Positions 328 through 3,033 of a stretch of 10,604 nucleotides of DNA are shown here, piece after piece. This DNA comes from Bacillota bacterium (GTDB taxonomy: Bacteria > Bacillota_A > Clostridia > Lachnospirales > WQUN01). The DNA lies in contig WQTQ01000147.1 in NCBI GenBank assembly GCA_009786175.1, positions 1 through 10,604 of the forward strand. Reading direction: 5' to 3'. Position 1 is the first letter of the stretch, and each line of letters opens with the position of its first letter. The notes under the pieces were generated by a model, which worked only from the letters and a program-made list of their open reading frames with translations, was not told the origin of the DNA and searched no databases. Made by a program: the position numbers and the translations under genes.

Positions 328-570
328 TATTTAGTCAAAACGAACATACAACGGAAATATTTGCCATATTACTATTCGCCTTATAGTGCCGTGTGGAGTT
401 TCTTCCATCGAGTACGTGAATCAGGATTATGGGAACGCATTATGGATGCATTGATAAAAAGAACACGTATAAACGCAGGTCGGAAAAAAATTTTCTCTCT
501 TACGGAATAATCGACTCCCAAAGTGTAAAAACTATTTTGACAAGTAAAGAGCGAGAGATTGACGGCGCGG
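328..570 (+). pseudogene. IS5-family transposase fragment, frameshifted and truncated
   Basis: Two adjacent frames together read like the N-terminal half of an IS5-family DDE transposase. From about 328 one frame gives YLVKT, then SPYSAVWSFFHRVRESGLWE, then IMDALIKRTRINAGRK. The reading must then slip by -1 in the run of seven A at 484-490. It continues as SYGIIDSQSVKT, where the D of IIDSQSVKT is the expected first catalytic aspartate, then KEREIDG. Similarity ends near 566, before the remaining DDE residues. There is no start codon, no C-terminal half and no recognisable terminal inverted repeat. A -1 slip in an A run occurs as programmed frameshifting in some IS elements, but the missing second half means this copy is dead. 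Its right edge coincides with the break in the lanthipeptide-like relic on the other strand. Confidence 0.7.
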
Positions 571-720
571 GTAATTTTGACATGTACACGAGCATGTTAT
601 TTTGGGTTCGTTTCCAACACATGTTCGTGTAATAGCGCGAATACTATACGGATTTTTTGTTATTTTTTGGATATCTAGATCAAAATCATCAAACATATTT
701 GACAACATAGTGTTTCGCAT
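532..720 (-). pseudogene. class I lanthipeptide precursor-like peptide, 3' end disrupted
   Basis: A 62-codon frame. The N-terminal part contains FDDFDLDIQK (residues 10-19), the FNLD-type leader box used by class I lanthipeptide dehydratases; FDDFDLD is identical to the stretch I recall in the subtilin leader. A basic and polar stretch follows, with an Arg at 28 where a NisP-like protease could cut, then a core rich in Thr, Ser and Cys (TRTCVG, then KITCSCTCQN, residues 31-49). Such cores are dehydrated and cyclised to lanthionine rings and exported as antimicrobials. From about residue 50 (position 573 and below) the frame runs into DNA that encodes the IS5-type transposase relic on the other strand, so the tail ending YLSK is probably foreign. 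Start choice is open (ATG at 720, 708 or 696) and none has a good ribosome binding site. No lanB, lanC, lanT or lanP is in the window. It could be a chance frame, but leader box plus Cys/Thr core is unlikely by accident. Confidence 0.45.
585..631. repeat. inverted repeat inside the lanthipeptide-like relic
   Basis: TACACGAGCATGT at 585-597 pairs with ACATGTTCGTGTA at 619-631, with one mismatch (G592 against T625, a wobble in RNA) and a 21-nt loop. It covers the Cys-rich core codons of the minus-strand lanthipeptide-like frame. No T-tract follows on either strand, so it does not look like a terminator. It may be coincidental. Confidence 0.3.
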
Positions 721-798
721 CTTTCTGGTTTTATACGGAATCCTTTATAACCAACAACACAACGAATGCACTAAAAGTATACACCACGTCTTTTTATC

Positions 799-856
799 TG
801 TCCAACAAAATGGAGCACAAGAATTCGCGAATTTTTGTGCTCCATTTTGTTGGACA
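799..856. repeat. 58-bp near-perfect palindrome
   Basis: The left half begins TGTCCAACAAAATGGAGCAC and the right half ends GTGCTCCATTTTGTTGGACA. The outer 22-bp arms (799-820 and 835-856) match perfectly. The centre AATTCGCGAATT (822-833) is itself palindromic. The only mismatch is position 821 against 834, a G-U pair in RNA. The whole could fold as one hairpin of about 28 bp with almost no loop. It lies upstream of the secreted-peptide gene and upstream, on the opposite strand, of the lanthipeptide-like relic. No clear U-tract follows on either strand (the plus side continues AGTTTATAAAG), so it is not a typical intrinsic terminator. Possible roles are a bidirectional transcription barrier, a regulator-binding site or a small palindromic mobile element. 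Confidence 0.8.
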
Positions 857-934
857 AGTTTATAAAGTTTTGGTATGCATTTACTATAACAAATAACAGC
901 ATTGAAAATGCTAAATTTCGAAGGGAGTAATCTT

Positions 935-1099
935 ATGAAAACAAACAAAAAATTAATCGCAGCGTGGTTTATGTGTATGGTGATCGTTTTTATGGCCATT
1001 TCACCAATGGTTGTGGTTGGCGCGCCACACGAGCAGTTAATTTATGAAACAATACCACCTAACTGCATTTTACCTCCAAACTGTGATGATGAAGCTTAG
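935..1099 (+). CDS. small secreted Cys-containing peptide, candidate signal or bacteriocin precursor (54 aa)
   Basis: A 54-aa protein starting MKTNKKLIAAW. The positive N-terminus (K2, K5, K6) and the hydrophobic run of residues 8-30 (AAWFMCMVIVFMAISPMVVV) form a Sec-type signal or membrane anchor. The rest is a short polar tail, beginning about PHEQLIYE and ending with PPNCILPPNC and DDEA. The PPNC motif occurs twice, so two Cys sit six residues apart. A signal peptidase site after VVVGA would put Pro at +1, which is unfavourable, so cleavage may lie elsewhere. The ATG at 935 is set by AAGGGAG (921-927, 7-nt spacer), better than the in-frame ATG at 902. The leader carries a small hairpin (898-912), a possible -10 TATAAC (885-890) and, further up, the 58-bp palindrome. 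The stop TAG (1097-1099) overlaps the convergent regulator's ancestral stop codon. Receptor-like regulator beside a small exported peptide is the pattern of RRNPP peptide signalling in Firmicutes; function here is inferred. Confidence 0.6.
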   Translation: MKTNKKLIAAWFMCMVIVFMAISPMVVVGAPHEQLIYETIPPNCILPPNCDDEA

Positions 1100-1347
1100 G
1101 AAAGGATTATATTATATTTCTCCTTTATGAAACCTCTTATCATTCCCAACTCCTCATTTTTTCCATGGTTTTCATAAATCAAAAAACCATAGTAAGCCAA
1201 TACAAGGTATGAGAGAGCTTCTTCGCTCTTTCCAAGGCTCAGCAAGGCATATCCTTTATTGAAGTATAAACCAAGCATACTTTTTAAGTGCCCTCGCATT
1301 ATGCCATACTCAAGTGCATTATCAACTACAGTCATGGCAGCTTCATT
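1096..1347 (-). pseudogene. severed C-terminal part of the XRE-TPR regulator
   Basis: Directly after the TAG at 1348-1350 the same frame continues as NEAAMTVVDNALEYGIMRGH and stays open to TAA at 1096-1098. It includes a recognisable TPR helix pair (LYFNKGYALLSLGKSEEALS) and an ending (GFIKEKYNIIL) like the C-termini of HTH-TPR regulators. No base has to be added or removed, so the two parts were one gene of 596 sense-equivalent codons plus stop. An ATG at 1335 exists, but its upstream sequence (GAATGAAGCTGCC) has no good ribosome binding site, so separate translation is unlikely. The fragment ends on the stop codon of the convergent secreted-peptide gene. Confidence 0.75.
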
Positions 1348-2886
1348 CTAGTTCAAAAGGCCTAAACATGACGAGTGGTTAAACGATAGGTTACCACACA
1401 ATTGCGACTTTAATGTATCATCTTTCCAATGGGCTTCTATGTTCTGAAAAAGCTTCCGATACATCCGTTCGGCGTGCATGTGGTCTCCTTTGTAGTGGTA
1501 ATACGCCGCCATACAGTTAATTGTTACAGCTTCTTGCATCGTAAGTGGGTAGTTGGCTATATCATCACGCTCATCAAAACCGGGGATAGTAAGCCTAATT
1601 GCCACTGTAAGCATCTCTAAATATTCCGGCATTTCGTTATCTTTACTATGTTTACGACCATATATTCTAGCTTCTGTAAGTTGTGTAAACTGCCGGAGAA
1701 TAACGTGTTGGTAACGTTTCTTACTTTCTAACAACTTAAGTTCCTCCAACTGTTTACCCGCTTGTGTAAATTTTCTTTCTCTCATTAAAACCTGTATTTT
1801 ATCCCGCAGCTGCCACGTTTTAAACTCTTTGGCAGGGGCATGGAAACTATGATGCAAACCAATGTCCCTGCCCATTCGCTGCGCAAGTGCCTCAACTAAA
1901 AATATGTTGGGGCTTTTTGTTTTATTCATTTCCAGTTTAGTAAGTGCAGAACTGTCGCAAAGCCCGCCATATATTACTTTGCGTTTAAAACTTGTTTGGC
2001 CCATAAACGATTGCAGCATATCCCCCAGTGTTGTAATGTTGCGCTGTGGCTGGGCTACGGGTGTGTCCGGCGGCATGTCATGAAGTATAAGTTCCATTCC
2101 ATAAGTTGCAATGGGCATGTCTAGCTGCTTGTGGGCAATTGTCAAAATCTCGTTTGCGGCTTTTGCATTGTTTAAGCCCACATAACCCGCAAAAGTTTTT
2201 GCAAGCAATGGGTGGCAGGCTTCCTTGTTTCCTGTCGCAATGTGTATCAGAATTTCAATATGCATAAAATCCGGACAGTACTTACCTTGGTTACGCCTTA
2301 CAGCAAAGTTAAATCCTATATTACAGGTGGCCAACGCACTTTCGTAATCTTCAACTTGCAGTAAGTATCTTGCAAGTGTCAGCAACATAGGGGTTACTTG
2401 CACTTCCTTGGTTCTATCGTCCGGCGGATATGCTTCCACACTGTCTAAAACATTTTTAAGTATGGTAATGGCGGTATCCATGTCATTGTCTTTTGCATAT
2501 GTCATTGCAAGTATATGAAAAAGCTGCGGTTCAAATGCAATAAGCGGCTTATTAATATAGTCATTTTCGTCTGCATTAGTTTCGGCTAAGGCTTGTGTTA
2601 TTATTTGACGTATATCGCTTGTGCTTTCATTATTTTGCAATGCAAACACAGCTTTGTTGCTTAATCTCTCTTGCTCGTGTTGATACGGCAATGTTAACAT
2701 TTCGCCTGTGTCAAAAAAGGGTTCCACAAGTTTCTTTACGGATTTTATCTGTGTAGAGTGTTTATAATCTTGGTTGCGTTCTAAAGTACGCAAGTCAAGA
2801 TTTGTGTCTTCTGAAAGCATTTCACTCTCCAGTTTCATACGGTCACGTATTTTTTGAAATAGGTGGTCTGTGTTTTCGATGCGCAT
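1348..2886 (-). CDS. HTH-TPR transcriptional regulator (RRNPP-like), shortened by an in-frame TAG
   Basis: A predicted cytoplasmic DNA-binding regulator of 512 aa, with an ATG at 2886 fixed by AGGAGGT (2894-2900, 7-nt spacer). Residues 4-56 look like a degenerate XRE-type helix-turn-helix (KIRDRMKL, then MLSEDTNLDLRTLERN). Residues about 80-265 are helical TPR-like repeats (for example ILAMTYAKDNDMDTAITILK and ARYLLQVEDYESALATCNIG). Residues 286-341 contain a second XRE-like unit, with VIYGGLCDSSALTKLEMNKT followed by LVEALAQRMGRDIG. Residues about 355-512 are more TPR-like helices. In the family, TPR domains often bind a short imported peptide that switches DNA binding. The protein ends at TAG 1348-1350, but the frame continues for 83 more codons that complete the C-terminal TPR, so about 14% of the ancestral protein is lost. 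TAG also ends walR, yycI and rplM here, so recoding is unlikely. It converges tail to tail with the secreted-peptide gene, its possible ligand source. XRE-TPR type is fairly sure; ligand and targets are not. Confidence 0.75.
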   Translation of the reverse strand: MRIENTDHLFQKIRDRMKLESEMLSEDTNLDLRTLERNQDYKHSTQIKSVKKLVEPFFDTGEMLTLPYQHEQERLSNKAVFALQNNESTSDIRQIITQALAETNADENDYINKPLIAFEPQLFHILAMTYAKDNDMDTAITILKNVLDSVEAYPPDDRTKEVQVTPMLLTLARYLLQVEDYESALATCNIGFNFAVRRNQGKYCPDFMHIEILIHIATGNKEACHPLLAKTFAGYVGLNNAKAANEILTIAHKQLDMPIATYGMELILHDMPPDTPVAQPQRNITTLGDMLQSFMGQTSFKRKVIYGGLCDSSALTKLEMNKTKSPNIFLVEALAQRMGRDIGLHHSFHAPAKEFKTWQLRDKIQVLMRERKFTQAGKQLEELKLLESKKRYQHVILRQFTQLTEARIYGRKHSKDNEMPEYLEMLTVAIRLTIPGFDERDDIANYPLTMQEAVTINCMAAYYHYKGDHMHAERMYRKLFQNIEAHWKDDTLKSQLCGNLSFNHSSCLGLLN

Positions 2887-2954
2887 TACTGTTACCTCCT
2901 GGTTATGGTGTCAAATTTCGCTTCCATCTTATGTGTTAAAAGATAGTGTGTGTC

Positions 2955-3009
2955 TTTGGGGCAATTAGGTATGCTAATTGCCCCAAAGGGGTACCCCTTT
3001 GGGTTTTTT
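2955..3009 (+). terminator. two overlapping perfect hairpins, the second with a T6 tract on the plus strand
   Basis: Hairpin A has perfect 14-bp arms, TTTGGGGCAATTAG (2955-2968) and CTAATTGCCCCAAA (2974-2987), around a 5-nt loop. Hairpin B is the 22-bp perfect palindrome at 2982-3003 centred on GGGGTACCCC, followed by TTTTTT (3004-3009). They share 2982-2987, so they cannot both form fully. On the plus strand B plus T6 looks like an intrinsic terminator and A like a competing structure. On the minus strand, the direction of the flanking genes, there is an A-tract before B and no U-tract after A. The element fills the space between yycI and the XRE-TPR regulator and may separate the two transcripts or shape the regulator's leader. 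Confidence 0.55.
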
Positions 3010-3033
3010 ACAATTTTTGCTACCCAAGGATTT

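Follow-up and report, generated by a model that had tools for sequence, protein, structure and literature searches.

The contig WQTQ01000147.1 of the Bacillota bacterium assembly GCA_009786175.1, analysed here over its whole length of 10,604 nt (the window), carries the gene of a tetratricopeptide repeat (TPR) regulator and, convergent with it, the gene of a small peptide with a secretion signal. Comparison with related genomes makes it probable that the pair belongs to a multi-copy pheromone module of the RRNPP type, composed of a receptor, a convergent propeptide, a bidirectional palindromic operator and a divergent effector operon. Support at the sequence level comes from the recurrence of the convergent pair, the PlcR-like fold of the receptor, its tandem duplication, the enrichment of palindromes and, in two genomes, the presence of palindromes before further operons.

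The propeptide gene lies at 935..1099 on the plus strand (ATG at 935, stop codon TAG at 1097-1099) behind a ribosome-binding site, AAGGGAG, at 921-927, and encodes 54 aa with a Sec-type N-terminus and a short tail. The whole regulator frame runs on the minus strand from 2886 to 1096 with the stop TAA at 1096-1098, and the two genes meet tail to tail in the TTAG at 1096..1099, which holds the regulator TAA and the peptide TAG. The original prediction for this DNA had described the same open reading frames (ORFs), coordinates and shared stop, which are confirmed here. It had also raised the question whether homologues of the regulator are accompanied by a small signal-bearing ORF that converges on them. 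This is the case at 44 of 102 family ORFs, compared with 1 of 256 control genes (Fisher 1e-26), and at 43/101 when the window is left out. The identical -4 stop overlap is seen at nine of these 44 ORFs, that of the window among them. For this count an ORF of 25-110 aa with a ribosome-binding site, a positive N-terminus and a hydrophobic core was accepted when its stop lay within -70..+60 nt of the regulator stop, the secretion signal being judged from charge and hydrophobicity only. From the DNA of the genomes 105 distinct family ORFs were collected, of which 102 were used; excluded were the window receptor's first piece, ORFs running off the sequence and those with less than 150 nt downstream. 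The receptors L019 and L101 each entered as two pieces, with the first pieces counted as misses, so that the 102 ORFs represent 100 receptors. The control genes were taken from 20 loci; 18 of these are in genomes of the family, L010 and L011 lie outside it, and not all of the genomes possess the receptor.

Convergent peptides were found both with long receptors (15/29) and with short ones (29/73). Same-strand peptide candidates were seen at 1 of 102 family ORFs and at 4 of 256 control genes. An earlier, narrower count, which required 30-110 aa, gave 29/63 for the family against 1/256 for the controls and 3/1260 for shuffled flanks. The convergent arrangement is therefore beyond chance. Under the filter, 58 of the 102 family ORFs showed no convergent peptide. 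Seven receptors that form part of one clade (L049, L066, L067, L068, L071, L073 and L077) lack a filter-passing partner, and their ligand, if any, would be encoded elsewhere. In the receptor tree, which counts peptides up to +200 and was interpreted without support values, the peptide-bearing receptors are scattered (43/96 tips, 24 changes versus a shuffled mean of 31.9). The close relatives of the window receptor P0003, P0005, P0006 and P0007 are placed near the long peptide-bearing receptors L031, L035, L036 and L038 and the peptide-less L023.

The regulator family was detected in 3 of 10 metagenome-assembled genomes (MAGs) reached through the loci. Of 38 genomes belonging to a Defluviitaleaceae-like family, 15 contain it, a single genome giving as many as 12 matches. 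With a wider profile it was found in at least 36 of 392 genomes of the order, a lower bound since scoring was limited to the top three candidates in each genome. Structure models of a long and a short form gave a PlcR/NprR/Rap-like fold, i.e., the RNPP TPR fold, and the best VIA match of both models was PlcR. Rgg was not among the structure matches listed, which excludes nothing, and a sequence search of the PDB returned no match. Together with the recurrent pair, the fold supports the proposal that a TPR regulator is paired here with an exported propeptide in the RRNPP manner. Binding proteins of the PF00496 family, candidates for re-import by an oligopeptide permease, are present in all 21 genomes examined for them, six of which gave no receptor match. 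Phages, plasmids and viral contigs yielded no copy of the regulator. Two sequence patterns run on genome contigs also missed it, though the profile search of genomes later found the family; pattern scans thus miss distant members, and mobile copies of the regulator may still exist.

Long members make up 29 of the 102 ORFs, the window frame included, and measure 576-722 aa, while the short members have mostly about 300-350 aa. As judged from their sequences, the long receptors are two receptor units joined in one chain. Five receptors were scanned for a helix-turn-helix (HTH) domain, which scored above the Pfam cut-off in L061, L031, L018 and L069, not in L045. No Pfam HTH was found in the window ORF, P0003 or P0004, and residues 27-59 of the P0003 model have a predicted local distance difference test (pLDDT) value below 50; the HTH region of the second unit lies within the profile coverage. 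The tandem XRE-TPR architecture originally proposed thus holds for the two receptor units in tandem, while the HTH of the first unit is not recognised in the window's own clade. The fusion may have arisen more than once, in the main long clade and in L110/L115, which group with short forms. At L112, L114, L124, L126 and L135 two receptor ORFs are adjacent, three of these pairs having overlapping ends; they are possible precursors or broken forms of double receptors.

Upstream of the window's peptide gene an inverted repeat at 799..856 is formed by 29-bp arms with one mismatch and no loop, and carries TGGACA at both outer ends. It is a candidate operator. From its left end a promoter-like site, TGGACA-17-TATACT (10/12), reads on the minus strand away from the peptide gene (776..804); shuffled versions of this region contain 2.6 sites of this kind on average and the window has one, so that the site carries weight only jointly with the repeat. 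On the other side a possible peptide promoter at 851..879 on the plus strand, with TGGACA, 17 nt and a weak TATGCA, was read directly from the letters and not reported by the promoter scan; the best -35/-10 pair of the window in a separate count of pairs at repeat ends (8/12) is a different one. Repeats with a score of at least 13 were present within 150 nt upstream of the peptide start at 22 of 44 loci, compared with 13/248 control upstreams, 10/256 control downstreams, 7/97 upstreams of the regulators themselves and 0/220 shuffles. At a score of at least 10 the corresponding counts were 32/44, 24/248, 43/256, 13/97 and 4/220. Allowing up to two mismatches, one arm sequence, CCATGACGTTTTTGGAGA, is common to the loci of three related receptors, which come from three genomes.

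The locus-specific repeat recurs before further operons in two (G025 and G006) of four genomes searched; in the other two, G031 and G004, it was found once only. In G025 a search tolerating up to three mismatches located inverted pairs of the L069 repeat arm at five sites. Three lie at most 4 kb from the receptor and a fourth about 21 kb off on the same contig, and the fifth is found where another contig begins. This fifth copy and the last of the three near ones stand at contig ends, and the assembly may have divided a single site between them. The G025 copies precede genes whose secreted-type products measure 219-227, 170, 158 and 196 aa; behind the 158-aa gene come those of an FtsX-type permease and an ABC ATPase. 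In G006 the L024 repeat occurs three times within 5 kb, preceding genes for secreted-type or membrane proteins, after one of which an ABC exporter follows. The copies in both genomes have TGGACA or CAGACA at the outer end and a -10-like box 16-18 nt further on, on both sides where readable. Several of the small secreted-type proteins behind the copies of one palindrome (L156:2702-5737, L157:13285-14858, L158:211-1476) bear Cys, and none has a Pfam match above the cut-off. At 21 of 25 loci with enough sequence a divergent ORF lies at most 400 nt from the repeat, and at 14 of those it is signal-like, a raw count without a background rate. At L175:4246-7753 a radical-SAM enzyme, a 232-aa protein and an ABC exporter are encoded divergently from the receptor-peptide pair, recalling the radical-SAM peptides controlled by Rgg in streptococci.

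Inverted repeats between genes may also be bidirectional terminators or a mobile palindrome, which we regard as unlikely here. Several observations weigh against an operator: 13 of the 27 strong repeats, defined by a score of at least 12, carry a run of T (3) or of A (10) at one end, those of L075 and L128 are terminator-like in appearance, such repeats are found in 4-5% of control flanks, and in G025 copies stand about 21 kb from the receptor and on another contig. On the other side, all 27 end 48-104 nt ahead of the peptide start, and 10 of them (37%) have a -35/-10 pair of at least 9/12 at their end, compared with 7.6% of shuffles. The promoter-like spacing of the G025 and G006 copies, their position before operons and the arm sequence shared by related receptors of three genomes likewise argue for the candidate operator.

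In the window copy one in-frame TAG, at 1348-1350, interrupts the receptor frame. Its first 512 codons (1348..2886, minus strand) encode, by ORF analysis, relatives and profile, two tandem RRNPP-type units, the second of them shortened by the TAG. The remainder with the last TPRs (1096..1347, minus strand) is open down to 1096 and has kept its similarity to intact relatives. P0003, P0005, P0006 and P0007 (584-645 aa) read through this position, P0003 (595 aa) being 74% identical to the window receptor, in line with the ancestral frame postulated in the original prediction. Recoding of TAG in this genome was considered and ruled out: the yycI-like gene of the window stops at TAG where its near-relative matches also end (residue 286-288 of 290), and walR terminates in TAG as well. 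TAG is thus a stop in this genome and the receptor copy is interrupted, while peptide gene and inverted repeat are intact. Alternatively the 512-aa protein could be a working product, signal-blind, constitutive or completed by TAG read-through, rather than the result of a recent loss. The open, conserved frame behind the TAG fits this, as do L019 and L101, two further peptide-bearing receptors with one in-frame TAG and an intact convergent peptide gene. We nevertheless hold it to be improbable, because TAG ends other genes of the window, other broken members of the family have TGA or several stops, the lost part contains the last TPRs and an insertion-sequence remnant lies on the effector side. 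The window copy is therefore probably damaged, and the receptor stop together with this remnant suggests partial decay of the module. Receptors may have been lost repeatedly while the signal was kept, but three cases are few.

The 44 propeptides have 42-74 aa with a positively charged N-terminus, a hydrophobic core and a polar tail. Their tails (45 with that of L046) are variable and rich in Pro and acidic residues, and 27 of the 45 contain Cys. A core [IVFL]-x-P-F is present in 9 of 45 tails (mean of 1000 shuffles 0.77, maximum 4). The broader [IVFL]-x-P-[FYN], which covers TIPPNCIL of the window, occurs in 13 (shuffles: mean 3.6, maximum 10); both patterns were picked after inspecting the tails. 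In the window the candidate pheromone core is TIPPNCILPPNC (residues 39-50, 1049..1084, plus strand), which overlaps the broader core and whose mature ends are predicted. The PPNC motif put forward in the original prediction is absent as such from the other listed peptides, and the Cys pair is no family trait, 10 of the 45 tails having at least two Cys. Tails are clearly similar between the closest receptors (VAYGMDY in L048 and L064, PFxIGxNK in L021 and L022), and over all pairs the correlation between peptide tail and receptor distance was not significant in a co-evolution test from which the weak peptide calls L044 and L138 had been removed; L044 is still within the 44. A protein search with the window peptide returned only itself and viral contigs gave none, and the relatives were recovered by position, not by sequence similarity. 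That the peptide is instead an effector, bacteriocin-like or acting at the cell surface, under control of the adjacent regulator and without signal function, would agree with the variable, Cys-bearing tails and with neighbouring operons of secreted proteins and transporters, once a radical-SAM enzyme with an ABC exporter, but is very unlikely given the fold of peptide-binding RRNPP receptors, the fixed place of the peptide gene beside the receptor, the short core common to nine tails and the similar tails of close receptors.

In the proposed pheromone module the propeptide would be exported by Sec and its tail cut to a short pheromone, which an oligopeptide permease would re-import and the TPR receptor would bind. 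The receptor would then bind the long palindrome with its back-to-back -35 boxes and control both the propeptide gene, as feedback, and the divergent secreted-protein operon, sometimes with ABC transporters. Processing, import, receptor binding and activation by the peptide-bound receptor are steps that we infer. Peptide-bound PlcR activates its promoters. Activation of both promoters would be expected here in a PlcR-like manner, and the sequence also permits relief of repression. The tail-to-tail layout would keep receptor and signal linked and place the peptide promoter next to the effector promoter.

In the PlcR-PapR system of the Bacillus cereus group an HTH and TPR receptor has an adjacent secreted propeptide, PapR, encoded in the same direction. 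PlcR is the nearest structural relative among the matches, but here the peptide is convergent with close or overlapping stops, the candidate promoter region is bidirectional and palindromic, and receptors are fused in pairs. Peptides of the streptococcal Rgg/SHP group III are short and hydrophobic and are not known to have a Sec-type leader, in contrast to the propeptides of 42-74 aa with Sec-type signal and polar tail described here. Excerpts of the literature describe group III SHPs as rich in hydrophobic residues (PMC13361665) and SHP propeptides as exported by PptAB (PMC10075063). The convergent overlap, which the original prediction had called atypical of known systems, is already known for group III, where the peptide gene overlaps the receptor 3' end, and Rgg systems drive radical-SAM peptide operons (PMC13361665). 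The TTAG of the window and the -4 overlap at 9 of 44 loci resemble this arrangement, and the L175 operon may be under similar control. The Rgg family was not among the matches listed in the Pfam scans of the receptors. AloP of Paenibacillus is transcribed in the direction of AloR. Here, in contrast, the peptide is on the opposite strand, same-strand candidates being confined to 1 of 102 ORFs. The many receptor-peptide pairs per genome are shared with AloR-AloP, for which part of the source reports many paralogous pairs per genome, AloP immediately downstream of AloR and control of a neighbouring gene (PMC7425212).

The signature used by RRNPP_detector, which combines a TPR receptor with a neighbouring secreted propeptide at -60..400 bp, is matched by the short forms, as far as the excerpt of its description goes. 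That survey covered complete genomes with default receptors of 250-500 aa, chosen from validated lengths of 285-473 aa (PMC10075063). By this excerpt the double receptors of 576-722 aa fall outside the survey through a bound of the software, not of mechanism, and more such systems may be hidden. Searches of the open-licence literature returned no paper linking RRNPP systems with Defluviitaleaceae or Lachnospiraceae, and an earlier description may exist elsewhere. Among the matches listed there for termite-gut quorum sensing and fused tandem receptors, each represented by title and start of abstract, none concerned this system. The fused receptor and the palindromic operator appear to be new, in distinction to the convergent overlap, and the module has the look of a quorum-sensing branch new to bacteria.

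The other genes of the window lie on the minus strand in the order rpsI, ispE, LysM-G5 protein, WalR, WalK, yycH-like and yycI-like, then the TPR regulator. WalR, WalK and the LysM-G5 protein were assigned by Pfam, the rest, which we take to be rpsI, ispE and the yycH-/yycI-like genes, by position and sequence resemblance. Among full-length matches to WalK, those with the highest identity (56-63%) come from ten MAG loci, of which nine carry the title Defluviitaleaceae and one Clostridiales. The isolate codes of these loci (Emb289, Lab288, Co191, Th196) occur in papers on MAGs from the gut of higher termites, e.g., PMC7024585, and we therefore presume that the window stems from a relative living in a gut of this kind. 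Between receptor and yycI-like gene, a 15-bp stem, a further repeat and a T-run at 2954-3011 probably form a terminator. On the side where relatives carry the divergent operon, 361..632 on the plus strand is probably the remnant of an IS4/5-type transposase. The DUF4096 match on 361-510 is weak (E 0.0026, 18.4 bits, below the cut-off of 34.3) and 429-632 gave no Pfam-type match. No divergent ORF with a ribosome-binding site was found beyond the repeat in the window, and Rfam returned no match.

We give an even chance to a wider interpretation, namely a new RRNPP branch of uncultured gut Clostridia. In this branch the receptor dimer would have been fused into a single chain, apparently on more than one occasion, and would act on back-to-back promoters in a very long palindrome, thereby switching the propeptide gene and arrays of secreted-protein operons in up to a dozen parallel channels per genome. 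If true, this would provide a set of predicted pheromone-receptor-operator triples from uncultured gut bacteria. The repeat would define a directly testable regulon, which is rarely available from sequence alone for RRNPP systems, and the natural fused receptor could reveal how a pair of ligand sites works together with a pair of DNA-binding domains.
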